Shown here in pieces: positions 50,471 through 56,844 of a stretch of DNA of 64,000 nt. A program made the position numbers and the translations under genes. Below the pieces are notes generated by a model, which was not told the origin of the DNA, did not search any database, and worked only from the letters and a program-made list of their open reading frames with translations. The stretch covers positions 1 to 64,000 of the forward strand of contig JARUHJ010000008.1 of assembly GCA_029667085.1 (NCBI GenBank). The letters are read 5' to 3'. Each line of letters starts with the position of its first letter. Within the stretch, counting starts at the first letter, position 1. This stretch comes from Deltaproteobacteria bacterium IMCC39524 (GTDB lineage: Bacteria > Desulfobacterota > Desulfuromonadia > Desulfuromonadales > BM103).

Positions 50471-50527
50471 CGGCAAGCTGCAAGATTACAGGCTTTGAGG
50501 TCTTATAGCTTACAGCTTACAACCGCC
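50471..50527. repeat. inverted repeat AGCTTRYAGCTTAC type overlapping end of ltaE
   Basis: The arms GGCGGCAAGCTGCAAGATTAC and GCTTACAGCTTACAACCGCC are imperfect complements. The ltaE stop codon (50503) lies inside the right arm, so the repeat supplies the last codons. It probably also works as a transcription end between the convergent genes. Confidence 0.6.
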
Positions 50528-51528
50528 TTTTGAAAAGCTTCAACAACGACAGGAATGTCCTCGGCATCAATATCGTGATGCGTGACCAGTCGTAGTTGTC
50601 CATACCCGCCAACCAAAATGCCACGCTCTTTCAGAGTCTCGACAAGCCGGGGCTGCGTCTCACGATCCGATGTCACGAAAACCATGTTGGTTTCAACTGT
50701 ATCCAGCTCAACATCCAACCCATCAATAGTCGAGAGTCCCTCAGCGAGAGCCCTGGCGTTGTGATGATCTTCAGCCAGACGCACAACATGGTGCTGCAGG
50801 GCATAAACGCCCGCAGCCGCCAGAATCCCCGCCTGACGCATGCCGCCACCGGCCATCTTACGCCAGCGGTGCGCTCTTTCAATCAGCTCATGCGATCCAA
50901 CCAGTACTGAACCAACAGGCGTACCGAGCCCTTTCGAGAGGCAGAAGGAGACAGAATCATAATGACGTGTAATCTCAGATATAGGCACCTGCTGCTTAAC
51001 GGCGGCATTAAAGACACGTGCACCATCAAGGTGCAGCTTTAAATCCTTTTCACGGCCAAAAGCTGCCGCTTCAGCTTGATAATCGAGCGACAGAACCTTG
51101 CCTGACTGGGTGTTCTCCAGACAGAGCAAACGCGTGATGGCAAAGTGGCTGTCATCGGGCTTGATCATCTCCGCAACTTTATACAGGTCAAGCCTGCCAT
51201 CCACCTCGAAATCAATCGGCTGAGGCTGCACCCCGCCAAAGACCGCCGCACCACCACCTTCGTAACGATAACAATGGGCCTGCTGGCCGGCAATAAACTC
51301 TTCACCACGCTGACAGTGCGAGAGGATCGCCAGTAAATTACTCTGGGTACCCGTTGGTACGAACAGGCCGGCCTCCTTGCCAGAAATCTCTGCAGCCAGT
51401 TTCTGAAGCCGGTTGACCGTCGGGTCCTCACCGTAGACGTCGTCGCCAACTTCTGCATCGAGCATAGCCTGCCGCATCGCCTCGGTCGGCTTGGTCACCG
51501 TATCACTACGTAAATCAATTGTTTTCAT
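50503..51528 (-). CDS. ltaE: low-specificity L-threonine aldolase
   Basis: A 341-residue PLP enzyme cleaving threonine or allo-threonine to glycine and acetaldehyde. '[18 protein letters not shown]', '[12 protein letters not shown]' and the PLP Lys in '[17 protein letters not shown]' are diagnostic. The ATG at 51528 has a GAGAG ribosome site. The final residues are encoded by a dispersed repeat. Confidence 0.93.
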
Positions 51529-51661: not shown

Positions 51662-51691
51662 TTGACACAATCGTGCCAAAAGTGGCACAAT
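51662..51691 (+). promoter_or_regulatory. sigma-70-type promoter of hydrogenase-domain regulator
   Basis: Consensus TTGACA, 18-bp spacer, CACAAT. The -10 and spacer overlap the palindrome at 51671-51690, so binding there should block this promoter. Confidence 0.5.
51671..51690 (+). promoter_or_regulatory. palindromic operator 1 (TYGTGCCA-N4-TGGCACAA)
   Basis: 20-bp palindrome TCGTGCCA-AAAG-TGGCACAA, 33 bases before the start codon of the sigma-54 activator. The same motif occurs twice downstream of the gene. Its position over the promoter points to autorepression. Confidence 0.75.
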
Positions 51692-51722: not shown

Positions 51723-54002
51723 ATGGATCCGATCATTACCGTCAAGGAAAACTGTCGTAAATGCTACGCCTGTGTCCGCAACTGCCCGGTCAAAGCGATC
51801 CGCGTCGACCAGAACTACGCCGAGGTCATCAGTGGTCGCTGCATAGGCTGCGGCAACTGCGTGAAAATCTGCTCGCAGAAAGCCAAAGTCATCGCCGACC
51901 ATATCGGGGAATGCAAAAAGCTCCTCGAAGGCGAAAATAAACCGATCGCCATCATTGGGTGTTCACACCCAGCATTCTTCAACGACGTCAACACAGGCCA
52001 ACTGGTCACAGGTCTGCGCCGAATCGGCTTTTCCGAAGTCCATGAGGGCGCCGCCGGCATCGATCTGCTACGTGACAGCTACCGTAACAAGGTCGAAAAG
52101 AACCCTGATTTCCCGCTGATAACAACTCACTGCCCAACAGTTGTTGACCTGATCGAACGGCACTACCCGCAACTCCTGAAAAACCTGATCGGCATCGTTT
52201 CGCCGATGGTGGCGATCGGACGCTTCATCAAAAGCCGCAGGCCTAAAGAGACACCGATCGTCTACATCAGTTCCTGCATCGCAGGGAAATTCGAGATAAC
52301 AGCCGAAGAGACCGGGGGCGCCATCGACTGCGTCATCTCCTACCAGGAACTCAGCCAAATGTTTCAGGCTCGCAACCTCAACCTGAAACGTCTTGGTGAA
52401 ATGGCTATGGATGGAATCGAGCCCAGGCGTGGCCACCTCTTTGCCATTTCAGGAGGACCATTCAAATCGTTCGGCATATCAAGCGAAGTCACCGACAAAG
52501 ACTACATAGAGACCGAGGGGGAAGAGAACACCATGGAGGTGATTAAGGACCTTGCCGCCGGCAGGATCTCCCCCAAAGTTGTCGATATCCGGTTCTGCAA
52601 CGGCGGCTGCATCGGAGGACCCGGCAAGAACAACCGCCTGACGACCTTCTCCAAACGGAACCTGATTATCGATCAGCACCTTAACAAGAACCTGTACTAC
52701 AAAACCAAGTCGATCTATCTGGCCGACATTCCATTACCTGCTTTTTTTAGAACTTTCTCCAATAAACATGAACGACAAAAAGCCCCGAGCAGTGAACGCT
52801 TACGCCAGATCCTTCAGTCAACCGACAAGTATGACACCAAGGATGAACTGAATTGCGGCGCCTGCGGCTACTCCACATGCCGCGAGCATGCGGTAGCCGT
52901 TTATCGTGACCTCGCAGAGGGGAATATGTGCCTCCCTCACTCGATCAAACGTCTTGAAGAGGATCACATCAAGCTCACCCAGAAGTATGAACTGGCCAAA
53001 CACGCCCTCAATCAGGAATTCGGCGACACAATGATTGTCGGCAACGACCAGCGGACCAGAGAAGTTATCAAACTGATTCACCAGGTCGGTCCGACACCGA
53101 CGACAGTTTTGATTCGCGGTGAAAGCGGAACCGGCAAAGAACTCACTGCGCGCGCCATCCACGCCCAGAGCAAGCGCGCCGACAAAACCCTGGTGACTGT
53201 TAACTGTACGACCCTGACAGACAGTCTCCTGGAGAGTGAACTTTTCGGCCACAAAAAAGGCGCATTTACAGGCGCACTTGCCGAGAAACGCGGCCTTTTT
53301 GAATCAGCGGATGGTGGCACCATTTTCCTGGATGAGGTCGGCGACATCACCCCTAAACTTCAGGCGGAACTCCTGCGTGTACTCGATATCGGCGAGATCA
53401 GGCCTGTTGGAAGCAATACCGCAACCAAGGTCCATGTACGCCTGATCGCGGCAACGAACCGCAACCTCGAGCAAGGGATCGCTGAAGGCTGGTTCCGTGA
53501 AGATCTTTTCTACAGGCTGAATGTCTTCACGATTACCATGCCACCGTTACGTAACCGCCTCGACTCTCTCGACGAGCTGCTACAAACTTTTATTGCCAAG
53601 GCCAGCACGCGCGTCAATAAGACATTGATCGGCATCGAAGACCGGGCGATTTACGCCATGCATCAATACCACTGGCCAGGCAATATCCGGGAGCTACAGA
53701 ACATTATCGAGCGTGCAGCAGTTCTGACTCACGATGAGGTCATCAGGCTTGAGAACCTGCCTGTGATTTTTGGTGAACTGGTCTTTCAGTCACCTGACGA
53801 GACCAGCCAGGACAGCCTGCGCAGCCAGCGGCAAAAGCATGTGAACCAGGTGGAAAGAAACCTTTTGACGCGATACTTGCGCGAAACGGATGGCAACACC
53901 TCGGCAGCAGCCCGACTTGCCGGAATTCCGCGAAGAACCTTCTACAGGATGCTCAGCCGCAACGGGCTCAACGGGTCTGATTTCAAATCACCACAAAAAT
54001 GA
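51723..54002 (+). CDS. sigma-54 activator fused to ferredoxin and iron-hydrogenase-like sensor domains
   Basis: A 759-residue protein. Order: two 4Fe-4S motifs ([12 protein letters not shown] and [12 protein letters not shown], residues 10-55); an Fe-hydrogenase large-subunit-like domain (about 75-370) with cysteines in THCP, SSCIAGK and FCNGGCIGG, matching the positions of H-cluster ligands; a further FeS domain ([10 protein letters not shown], about 377-405); a sigma-54 AAA+ domain with [14 protein letters not shown] and FLDEVGD; and a Fis-type HTH (about 715-755). GAFTGA shows it contacts sigma-54. It should sense redox state, H2 or a related signal through its clusters. AAGGAG precedes the ATG. 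Palindromes lie on both sides of the gene. No H-cluster maturase genes are nearby. Confidence 0.9.
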
Positions 54003-54042: not shown

Positions 54043-54062
54043 CTGTGCCACTTCCGGCACAG
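54043..54062 (+). promoter_or_regulatory. palindromic enhancer site 2
   Basis: CTGTGCCA-CTTC-CGGCACAG, same 8-4-8 layout as site 1. It is centred about 199 bases upstream of the predicted sigma-54 start. Confidence 0.75.
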
Positions 54063-54108: not shown

Positions 54109-54128
54109 TTGTGCCAAATTAGGCACAA
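54109..54128 (+). promoter_or_regulatory. palindromic enhancer site 3
   Basis: TTGTGCCA-AATT-AGGCACAA, the most symmetrical of the three. It is centred about 133 bases upstream of the predicted start, 66 bases (about six helical turns) from site 2. Confidence 0.78.
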
Positions 54129-54223: not shown

Positions 54224-54240
54224 TTGGCATAATAGTTGCT
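54224..54240 (+). promoter_or_regulatory. sigma-54 (-24/-12) promoter
   Basis: TTGGCAT-AATAG-TTGCT matches the consensus (Y)TGGCAY-N5-TTGCW at every defining base with correct GG-to-GC spacing. Transcription should start about 12 bases after the GC, near 54251. Confidence 0.8.
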
Positions 54241-54250
54241 CTATATAACA

Positions 54251-54348
54251 ACAACTGTCTAGGGACATCAGTTTCCATTCCTAAAAAGGATTCCTGTTCC
54301 CTTGTTTACGCCGCCACGGGACCTCTCTCCCCCGGGCGGCGTTTTTTT
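54251..54348 (+). ncRNA. predicted sigma-54-dependent small RNA (~98 nt)
   Basis: The interval from the predicted start to the end of the T-tract contains no ATG. It can fold into a 5' arm (GGGA..CAG..TCCT-AAAA-AGGA..CTG..TCCC) and a 3' GC-rich terminator stem. The placement of sensor/activator gene, enhancers, sigma-54 promoter and short terminated unit resembles GlmY or CrcZ-type regulation. The transcript itself is unproven; the terminator could alternatively attenuate ptsP transcription. Confidence 0.65.
54309..54348 (+). terminator. strong intrinsic terminator
   Basis: CGCCGCC/GGCGGCG 7-bp stem, one bulged A, inner CGGG/CCCG 4-bp stem, 10-base loop, then seven T. Confidence 0.92.
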
Positions 54349-54498: not shown

Positions 54499-56844
54499 AT
54501 GCCACGTACAGCTAAATCAAAAATTGGCGTCACCACTCTTGAAGATATCAGCGCGCTGATTCTGCAGTCGCACGATCTCGACGAGACACTGCGGAACATA
54601 GTCAATCTCGTAGCGCGACGCATGCATACAGACGTCTGCTCGATCTACCTCCTTGACGAAGACAATGAAACCCTGCGCCTGCAGGCATCGAAAGGTCTTT
54701 CACGTAAAGCTGTCGGTAAAGTCACCCTGCGTATCGGCGAAGGCCTGACCGGCATGGCCGCGCAAAAGCGCCATGCAATAGCCATAGAAGAACCTCAAGA
54801 CCATCCCAGTTACCGTTACTTCAAAGAGACTGGTGAAGAGAAATTTCACTCATTTCTTGGCATTCCGCTCTTCGATCGCAACAATCCTCTCGGGGTTATC
54901 GTTTTACAGACCAAGACCTCACGGCAGTTCAGCAAAGAAGAAATAAGCGCACTCTCGACTATCGCTTTCCAGATTACTTCTATTGTCGTCAACGCCCGCC
55001 TGCTAGACTCAATCCGCCTGCACCAGGAAGAAAGCCAGCGAGTCAGTGAAGCACTCGCCATGGCTCAACAGGGCATCACGGACGTTGAGCAAGCAACTGA
55101 AGACTCCCGCCAGAATACGCTTTCTGGTGTTGTCGCCTACCCAGGAGTTGCAATCGGTCCGGCGGCGATCCTCGAGGAGCGTCTCGGCTTTGCCGACATC
55201 CTGCACGAGGAGCAGATCGACATTGCAAACGAGTTGAAAAAACTCGAAAGCGCCCTGGAGAAGACCTGCATCCAGACCATCTTCCTGGAAAAACGCGTCG
55301 CTGAGCGGCTCAGTGAAAATGACGCAGCAATTTTTCACACACACCTGATGATTCTTGAAGATCGAAGTTTTATCAGGAAGCTTCAAAAGCAGATATCAAA
55401 CGGACACAGCGCCGCATATGCTCTTGAAAAAACCGTTGCCGACTACATCGAAGTCTTCCATAACATGCAAGACCCGTATCTTCGTGAACGCGCAACTGAC
55501 ATGGAAGATATAGGTCGACGCATTCTCGCTAACCTGGTCGGAGAAGCCACTGATCAGGTTCTGCACCTGAAGCACCCGAGCATTCTGGTTGCCCGGCAGA
55601 TTCTCCCCTCCGACATGGCTGCTCTCGACAACGAGCAGATCCTCGCCATTGTCACCGAAGTCGGAGAGAAGAACGCTCACGCCATAATCATGGCGAAGTC
55701 AATGGGGATACCAGCCATTGTAGACGTGCGTGGTGCTCTCAAGAACATTGCCCCCGAAGACAGCTTGATCGTTGATGGCAATACCGGCCGGATTTACATC
55801 AACCCCCTTGAGACGGTCAAGGACGAGTACCATCGGCTTCAGGTTGACCAGACGCGCGAGCTCTGCCGCCTTGAACAGTATCGCGACGAACCGGCAATGA
55901 CTGCTGACGGCCATCGCATTACCCTGCGTGCAAACATCGGATTGGTCAGCGACATTAATGTTGCCATGCGCTTCGGTGCCGAGGGCGTCGGTCTCTATCG
56001 TACAGAATTCCCCTATATGGCCCGCGGCGATTTTCCCAGCAGAGAGGATCAATACGAGCTTTACAGCCACGTGGTCAAAGCCTTTGCCGGCGAGACAGTC
56101 ACCATCCGGACTCTGGATATCGGGGGAGACAAAGGTCTCCCTTACTTCAGCCCACCCAAGGAGGACAACCCCTTCATGGGCTGGCGCTCGGTCCGTGTCT
56201 CCCTCGACAACCGGGATATTTTCCAAACCCAGATCGAAGCGATTCTCATGGCAGGATGCCACGGCCAGGTCAAACTGCTCTTCCCGATGATTTCGAGTAT
56301 GGATGAAACGATTGCATGCCTTGAAGTGATCAAGGAGGCCCGCGCCAATCTAACGAAAGAGGGCATTGAGTTTGCGGACAATGTTCCTGTCGGCGTCATG
56401 ATCGAAGTTCCTGCAGCCGTCAGGCTTGTCCCTCGACTTGCCAACAAAGTAGACTTCTTTGCCCTCGGCACCAATGACCTTGTGCAATACCTGCTGGCGA
56501 CCGATCGCAACAACCCTTTGGTCAGCAAGCACTATGACCCGCTCCATCCTGCCGTTTTACAAGTTCTTTACGAAGTCACCGACACAGCCCTTTCTATGGG
56601 AAAAGGCGTCAGCCTCTGTGGCGAGATGGCAACCGATCCGCTTACCCTTCTGTTACTGCTCGGCATGGGGCTTCGTGAATTCTCCATGCCCGCACCTTTC
56701 ATTCCACGCACCAAAGCCTTTCTCAAAGGGGTTTCACTGGCAACCGCCTGCAAGTGCTACACGGAAATTCATCGCATGGACAGCAGCACGGAGATTCGTG
56801 CGCACCTTGCTGAGATTCTTGAGGAAATTGAGCTGGGGTATTAG
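54499..56844 (+). CDS. ptsP: phosphoenolpyruvate-protein phosphotransferase PtsP (enzyme I-Ntr)
   Basis: 781 residues: N-terminal GAF domain (about 20-165), EI N-terminal helical domain (about 210-330), the phosphohistidine swivel with active His in 'NAHAIIMAKSMGIPA' (about 394), and the C-terminal PEP-binding barrel with 'GVGLYRTEFPYM' and 'LFPMISS'. It starts the nitrogen-type PTS relay to NPr and EIIA-Ntr, often tied to sigma-54 regulation. It follows the sigma-54 regulatory region in the same direction; read-through past the terminator could connect them. Confidence 0.95.
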   Translation: MPRTAKSKIGVTTLEDISALILQSHDLDETLRNIVNLVARRMHTDVCSIYLLDEDNETLRLQASKGLSRKAVGKVTLRIGEGLTGMAAQKRHAIAIEEPQDHPSYRYFKETGEEKFHSFLGIPLFDRNNPLGVIVLQTKTSRQFSKEEISALSTIAFQITSIVVNARLLDSIRLHQEESQRVSEALAMAQQGITDVEQATEDSRQNTLSGVVAYPGVAIGPAAILEERLGFADILHEEQIDIANELKKLESALEKTCIQTIFLEKRVAERLSENDAAIFHTHLMILEDRSFIRKLQKQISNGHSAAYALEKTVADYIEVFHNMQDPYLRERATDMEDIGRRILANLVGEATDQVLHLKHPSILVARQILPSDMAALDNEQILAIVTEVGEKNAHAIIMAKSMGIPAIVDVRGALKNIAPEDSLIVDGNTGRIYINPLETVKDEYHRLQVDQTRELCRLEQYRDEPAMTADGHRITLRANIGLVSDINVAMRFGAEGVGLYRTEFPYMARGDFPSREDQYELYSHVVKAFAGETVTIRTLDIGGDKGLPYFSPPKEDNPFMGWRSVRVSLDNRDIFQTQIEAILMAGCHGQVKLLFPMISSMDETIACLEVIKEARANLTKEGIEFADNVPVGVMIEVPAAVRLVPRLANKVDFFALGTNDLVQYLLATDRNNPLVSKHYDPLHPAVLQVLYEVTDTALSMGKGVSLCGEMATDPLTLLLLLGMGLREFSMPAPFIPRTKAFLKGVSLATACKCYTEIHRMDSSTEIRAHLAEILEEIELGY

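Follow-up and report, generated by a model that had tools for sequence, protein, structure and literature searches.

The 64-kb window analysed here (the whole stretch of DNA, 64,000 nucleotides) contains an activator gene (51723-54002, plus strand) that is divergent from a threonine-aldolase-type gene (50503-51528, minus strand) and that is followed on its own strand by a predicted sigma-54 promoter (54224-54240), a candidate small RNA of about 98 nt (54251-54348), and ptsP (54499-56844), a neighbour that lies outside the unit. The activator combines ferredoxin-type [4Fe-4S], Fe-only-hydrogenase-like, FeS, sigma-54 AAA+, and Fis-type HTH domains (Pfam matches to Fer4 families, Fe_hyd_lg_C, FeS, Sigma54_activat, and HTH_8). 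Its N-terminal part resembles NCBIfam FeFe_hydrog_B1 with 160 bits, which is below the cut-off of 450. When the protein was aligned with 53 orthologs (5 of 58 were dropped for a stop in the translated stretch), cysteines 137, 185, 292, and 296 of the hydrogenase-like part proved invariant in all 54 proteins, as did a histidine at position 136, just before Cys 137. We take these cysteines to match H-cluster-type ligands, and the histidine presumably takes the place of a catalytic cysteine.

The promoter is a TTGGCAT-N5-TTGCT box (TTGGCATAATAGTTGCT) whose GG and GC are 12 nt apart, and an RNA start at 54251 is deduced from its -12 position. A first-pass annotation of this DNA had described the -24/-12 box, a start near 54251, and a downstream stretch free of ATG, and the sequence confirms all three (no ATG occurs in 54251-54348). 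The pattern TTGGCAY-N5-TTGCW has a single exact match in the window, which is this box. If one mismatch is tolerated, 4 sites match where 1.84 are expected, and therefore the box by itself is unremarkable. Two exact TGTGCC-N6-GGCACA dyads lie upstream as candidate upstream activating sequences, a distal one at 54044-54061 (about -198) and a proximal one at 54110-54127 (about -132). A third dyad with one mismatch, CGTGCC-N6-GGCACA, precedes the activator gene at 51672-51689. The first-pass annotation had overlooked all three. Against these 3 matches, 0.16 would be expected in the window, and none of 100 shuffles reaches that number. Across the 3.78-Mb genome only two exact dyads exist, both at the RNA promoter, and one-mismatch dyads occur at 7 further places (one of them before the activator gene) versus 3 for a reversed control. 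The upstream dyad sits inside a sigma-70-like promoter (hexamers 51662-51691), which is where autoregulation of the activator gene would predict a copy, and such autoregulation is possible.

At the sequence level, positions 54251-54348 have the character of a short, terminated, non-coding RNA that is present in single copy in its own genome. The predicted fold is stable (-33.9 kcal/mol, z = -4.07; 0/200 shuffles are as stable) and comprises a 5′ domain closed by AGGGA/UCCCU (54261-54302) and an intrinsic terminator (54308-54348). The lower stem of the terminator pairs 54308-54315 with 54335-54342, and the T7 tract occupies 54342-54348. The GC-rich stem and seven T that had been noted earlier are present, but the stem, which spans 54308-54342 and has a bulged A, counts 12 pairs rather than 11. 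A simple terminator scan has no entry for this terminator because its loop limit is 8. The loop itself, ACCUCUCUCC with the core UCUCUCC (54321-54330), is exposed and is a candidate anti-Shine-Dalgarno seed. The window has no Rfam family match at the gathering score, including the GlmY/GlmZ, Qrr, and CrcZ models, and a known RNA family was therefore ruled out.

A scan of named genomes yielded 71 loci, including 59 with close orthologs of the activator, and 58 of these were examined since one (L047) ends inside the gene. Downstream of the activator, the unit of promoter, RNA, and terminator is kept at 55 of the 58 loci. The box reads TGGC-N8-TGC at 52 (among them L020, in which the terminator loop is shortened) and has one mismatch at L023, L037, and L040. 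The loci that have it include L031, from the culturable Malonomonas rubra DSM 5091. At the remaining three, L043, L045, and L048 (Geobacter or Geobacteraceae), a small protein gene replaces the RNA. A dyad with at most two mismatches is found downstream of the activator in all 58 orthologs (22 exact, 27 with one mismatch, 9 with two), whereas one shuffle per region gave best dyads with 2-5 mismatches. Furthermore, of the 56 orthologs with enough sequence, 42 have a dyad with at most one mismatch in the 200 nt that precede the activator. Conservation of promoter, hairpins, and terminator near orthologous activators had been proposed as a check on the original annotation, and the outcome, together with the restriction of exact dyads to this promoter genome-wide, gives strong comparative support to its main reading that a sigma-54-dependent RNA is probably the dedicated output of the adjacent activator.

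A wider search with a terminator model, R1, leads to a similar picture. Of the 277 genomes in the class, 91 have a match, and 88 of these 91 are among the 136 genomes of the order, Desulfuromonadales. By manual count, 81 of these 136 have a strong activator match and 80 of the 81 also have the RNA; the 81st, G095, has a weaker copy beside its activator that is recovered by a lenient search. Six other order genomes with a weak activator match (E 1e-170 to 1e-196) gave no RNA hit at 1e-3. Eight genomes have an RNA-model match without a strong activator match, and all but G094 were inspected. In five (G046, G084, G093, G132, G133) the RNA is retained behind a TGGC-N8-TGC box and comes after ABC transporter genes, and the gene that follows it is ptsP-like in G046, G084, and G133 and encodes an iron-sulfur protein in G132. 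The match in G023 has an altered loop, CUCUCUCAC, and no box was seen there, while that in G085 is a different RNA. Second, weak R1 matches in G004, G132, and G024 are without the UCUCUCC seed. Matches outside the order (G158 twice, G171, G212; 33-36 bits) were also inspected, and none has UCUCUCC. Upstream of activator-less RNAs at L324, L315, and L317 we observed the dyads TGGTCTGACCA/TGGTCAGACCA. These look to us GntR/FadR-like and perhaps reflect a changed regulator of those RNAs.

The inner parts of the RNA vary among clades, with the terminator hairpin following the 5′ domain and its loop common to nearly all. Individual folds give an outermost 5′-domain helix of at least 4 bp in 49 of 56 RNAs, and by manual reading this is of the GGG../..CCC type (AGGGAU/AUCCCU, GGGAG/CUCCC, GGGG/CCCC) in 45 of those 49. 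UCUCUCC is present in 55 of the 56 RNAs, and in all 55 minimum-free-energy folds 4-5 of its first 5 nt are unpaired. It is kept even though mean column identity in a 46-sequence alignment is 51%. Because a terminator needs no fixed loop, this one is probably under selection for something besides termination. In one clade of 15 RNAs (L031, L034-L037, L039, L041, L044, L049-L053, L057, and L069), an 18-nt hairpin, CCGUUCCCGCCCGAACGG (CCGUUC-CCGCCC-GAACGG), is near-invariant in both loop and stem and possibly forms a second binding site. G084 also has this hairpin, and G046 has a version of it that is shorter by one base.

In the alignment, 98.9% of cells in the lower terminator helix are paired and 2 of its 6 pairs have changes on both sides. 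Only 35% of cells pair in the upper stem under the structure given to R1, because the alignment shifted the loop side and the upper stem is misplaced. A covariation test, which had been suggested with the original annotation, gave a divided answer. The score of 0.156 was reached by 0/500 shuffles, but the 5 pairs changed on both sides were equalled in 416/500. Since the misplaced upper stem accounts for this weak whole-structure signal, our conclusions on structure are drawn from the individual folds.

The complement of the seed core UCUCUCC, GGAGAGA, is a variant of the Shine-Dalgarno sequence. In the same genome, GGAGAGAG-N2-9-ATG occurs at 33 places versus 9 for the reversed pattern. Likely starts among them are those of aconitase B, citrate synthase, malate dehydrogenase, and isocitrate dehydrogenase, and others belong to pyrB, an aldehyde ferredoxin oxidoreductase, the threonine-aldolase-type gene beside the activator (whose Shine-Dalgarno sequence is GGAGAGAG and which is a possible local target), a cytochrome, and a secretion gene. 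The pattern AGGAGAGA-N3-8-ATG occurs at 41 places versus 6 for its control and adds fumarase, sucD, both subunits of a NiFe hydrogenase, NuoL-like, leuB-type, aroF-type, and dapA-type genes, and others. A pyrE-like gene on this second list was assigned by manual reading and has no Pfam match at 1e-10. At locus L002, the GGAGAGAG 8-mer also precedes a 348-codon minus-strand ORF.

Six genes of the TCA cycle (gltA, acnB, icd, mdh, fumarase, and sucD) are thus among about 30 plausible matched genes, the latter figure resting on a manual reading of the 41 places. Finding six in such a list has a chance of about 1e-11 to 1e-8 when the calculation is made for 26 genes and totals of 3000-3800 genes and 10-20 TCA genes are assumed. 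Predicted duplexes between loop and leader range from -11.9 to -17.1 kcal/mol for the motif-selected genes, compared with a mean of -8.2 (sd 3.3) for 52 genes of the window, 7 of which, including the aldolase, lie at -11.9 or lower. This comparison is partly circular because the targets were picked by motif.

Relatives with and without the RNA, as defined by the R1 search, differ at the same ribosome-binding sites, in a comparison that amounts to nearly one single phylogenetic contrast. Of 31 genomes with the RNA, 30 have GGAGAGA before gltA, 26 of them as the full 8-mer. The 15 RNA-less genomes, two of them (G112 and G113) from the order, contributed 17 gltA records, none with the motif. The corresponding values, RNA-bearing versus RNA-less, are 19/20 (13 full) versus 0/7 for mdh and 14/21 (13 full) versus 0/7 for acnB. 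For icd they are 20/22 (5 full) versus 5/7, and icd was ruled out as a discriminating target. Exceptions among RNA-bearing genomes, of which acnB alone has 7, include G089, without the site at mdh, acnB, and icd; G037, without it at gltA; and G008, without it at acnB and icd. The gltA counts omit G064, which gave no match, G055, which gave a partial one, and the second of the copies in G182; those for mdh omit G025 and G037 (no match), and those for acnB omit G037 (match begins at residue 87). As background, GGAGAGA precedes 9 and GGAGAGAG precedes 2 of the 329 ORFs of at least 250 codons in the window and 56 loci, 176 of which have an SD-like site. From these counts gltA and mdh emerge as the strongest candidate targets, with acnB depending on lineage and icd failing to discriminate. 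In terms of what is expected of an anti-Shine-Dalgarno RNA, the conserved unpaired C/U seed fits, and conserved complementary ribosome-binding sites are clear for gltA and mdh and partial for acnB.

Genomes of the genus g20 were kept apart. Two of them, G048 and G049, have GGAGAGAG before gltA without an activator or RNA-model hit; G048 has it likewise before acnB and mdh. Their counts are 2/2 for gltA, 1/1 for mdh, 1/1 for acnB, and 0/1 for icd. A divergent copy of the RNA in g20 was ruled out, as the 21 hits of the lenient search that were viewed are other terminators, plus the RNA of G095 itself. A different candidate RNA with a C/U loop lies, in some members of g20, downstream of an Fe-S gene that is presumably lactate-utilisation-like, and it consists of a hairpin, CGTGAGACTCTCTCTCCCACG, and a terminator with the same C/U seed. 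By pattern it occurs in 6 of the 136 order genomes (G051, G071, and G085-G088; L327, L324, and L329-L334), none of which is among those with the activator-linked RNA, and the pattern scan misses at least G056 (L286). It was not found in G048. A terminator with the loop GGAACUCUCUCCCC was also seen after an unrelated coding gene at L308/L328 (G051:C47), in a genome without the activator-linked RNA.

Several other explanations of the locus deserve consideration. The transcript might be an attenuated leader of ptsP, with read-through of the terminator in certain circumstances extending it into that gene, as had been offered earlier as an alternative. Indeed, ptsP is the next gene in the window, and 40 of the 53 testable loci have it directly after the RNA, at 62-191 nt past the terminator in 37 of the 40. 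However, the RNA and its terminator remain in the 13 loci where no ptsP was found downstream, and what has been conserved is the open loop of the terminator. We reject the leader on the strength of those 13 loci and consider it very improbable. An even fainter prospect is that the region holds a short translated ORF or is non-functional sequence between two conserved genes. An ATG does occur in 24 of 56 homologues, and MTRE-like starts are common to one clade, but the other 32, including that of the window, have none, and the ORFs listed differ by clade. An encoded peptide was ruled out because no ORF is common to the clades. Neither version accounts well for the paired changes in the lower terminator stem or for a seed retained in an otherwise divergent RNA.

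The alternative that comes closest accepts an activator-driven sigma-54 sRNA but proposes that its loop binds a protein or sponges RNAs, GGAGAGA being merely the Shine-Dalgarno variant favoured in the order. This would agree with the presence of GGAGAGA before icd in 5 of 7 RNA-less relatives, and with G048, which carries GGAGAGAG before gltA, acnB, and mdh despite having no acceptable RNA-model hit. The motif is nevertheless rare before other ORFs of the same loci (the 9/329 and 2/329 above). The letters that follow GGAG are complementary to the seed and not to the 3′ end of 16S rRNA, and TCA genes are over-represented in the genome scan. We therefore regard this explanation as unlikely, though less so than the other two.

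Taken as a whole, the most satisfactory explanation, and one that we consider probable, is that an activator-driven sigma-54 RNA uses an anti-Shine-Dalgarno loop to lower translation in the TCA cycle and is an RNA counterpart of the protein HgtR. The hydrogenase-like Fe-S activator would bind the two TGTGCC-N6-GGCACA sites and open the promoter at 54224-54240, such that the RNA would be made only when the activator acts. The UCUCUCC loop would then pair with GGAGAGA(G) at the ribosome-binding sites of the mRNAs for citrate synthase, aconitase B, malate and isocitrate dehydrogenase, and other proteins of energy metabolism and biosynthesis. By blocking ribosome binding, this pairing would reduce translation of TCA-cycle and related mRNAs, and acetate oxidation might be curtailed when another electron donor, probably H2, is available. 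Since the exposed loop fits the ribosome-binding sites of several genes of the TCA cycle, the RNA probably acts to slow this cycle. We infer from sequence comparisons that the RNA is transcribed, that the activator binds the dyads, and that the effect is repression rather than activation.

The signal for the activator would be H2 or the Fe-S/redox state, and a role for the hydrogenase-like sensor domain is suggested by this reading of the RNA and its targets. Both NiFe hydrogenase subunits with AGGAGAGA sites (L383 and L384) are in the same genome as the RNA. A response to H2 would be expected to spare hydrogenase, and these sites are consequently odd unless they serve feedback, which counts against the H2 reading.

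The comparison with HgtR rests on the genomes in which the RNA is replaced. The activator is present in 203 of the 277 genomes of the class and in 116 of the 141 outside the order (203 less 87). In 20 of these 116 the downstream region was examined, and all 20 have a gene for a protein of about 60 aa, with MGRMRENPRYNV-(I/V)-SMR near its start, in the place of the RNA. We call these genomes Geobacter-type because L043, L045, and L048 have a like protein at a like place. By loose patterns, 15 of the 20 regions have a dyad-like match and 17 a box-like one, and UCUCUCC is absent from all 20. The -12 part of the Geobacter-type promoters (L423-L442) is often TGGC or TAGC, not TTGC. The protein has a sub-threshold Pfam hit to DUF6290, and we read its sequence manually as ribbon-helix-helix. 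Conversely, an HgtR-like small protein gene is absent from the place of the RNA in the window.

By synteny we infer that the Geobacter-type protein is HgtR. The 2010 paper on HgtR has 'biosynthesis and energy generation' in its title, a phrase that also describes the list of sites found here. The hgtR gene lies downstream of a gene for an enhancer-binding protein and has a predicted RpoN promoter (PMC2725144). Another report describes HgtR (GSU3364) of Geobacter sulfurreducens as H2-induced and as lowering citrate synthase, although it was not detected in the results of that study (PMC7894505), and a third states that HgtR lowers gltA, atpG, and nuoA (PMC7726332). The two systems are alike in having an orthologous activator, a dyad, and a sigma-54 promoter. 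They are unlike in that HgtR is a protein repressor of transcription, whereas here an RNA with an anti-Shine-Dalgarno loop would act. On balance we favour the view that one ancestral Fe-S/hydrogenase-like sensor and sigma-54 promoter came to serve two unrelated effectors in sister groups, HgtR in relatives of Geobacter and the RNA in Desulfuromonadales, both directed against the TCA cycle. The regulatory logic would have been kept while the molecule was exchanged and the Shine-Dalgarno sites of the targets adapted to the seed.

If this is true, an order of environmental anaerobes would possess a switch between acetate oxidation and another electron donor for which the sensor, the RNA, and the targets can all be named. 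It would also show clearly that a protein repressor and an sRNA can trade places under one sensor, and such an exchange would make the replacement of regulatory outputs in evolution testable in related, partly culturable bacteria. In the literature searched, which covered few subscription papers, we found neither a description of this RNA nor one of a single sensor whose protein repressor has been exchanged for an sRNA. No paper combining Desulfuromonas, small RNA, and the TCA cycle was found; papers on small RNAs of Desulfuromonadales are unrelated by title, and among those listed for Geobacter sRNA, citrate synthase, hydrogenase, and post-transcriptional control, none is on this RNA by title. 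The predicted CsrB-type sRNAs of G. sulfurreducens (PMC11934962) are distinct from it. The kinds of component are known already, both sigma-54-controlled sRNAs and sRNAs that lower TCA-cycle enzymes.

Among known sRNAs, RoxS/RsaE of Firmicutes has a C-rich motif, and its control differs from that of the RNA described here. In RepG of Helicobacter pylori, a C/U-rich terminator loop does the pairing. RoxS/RsaE is similar as an sRNA of central metabolism, and the likeness is functional. RepG targets a G-repeat of the tlpB leader (PMC8295292). It too is likened by function, and it differs in facing one G-repeat in one leader, whereas the loop here would face many metabolic ribosome-binding sites. 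The sibling sRNAs NgncR_162/163 of Neisseria down-regulate TCA-cycle enzymes including GltA (PMC9973317). They belong to another organism and resemble the present RNA in its predicted function, and the text consulted mentions no sigma-54 or Fe-S activator for them.

The pairs GlmY/GlrR, Qrr/LuxO, and CrcZ/CbrB are sigma-54-dependent sRNAs under the control of NtrC-type activators. Our locus is like them in its arrangement of an activator, upstream sites, a -24/-12 promoter, and a short terminated RNA, and the predicted promoter and the shared candidate sites near the activator gene would place it in this class. It is unlike them in that the part of the activator is played by a one-piece Fe-S/hydrogenase-like protein and not by a response regulator, and in that the predicted targets and the seed are others.
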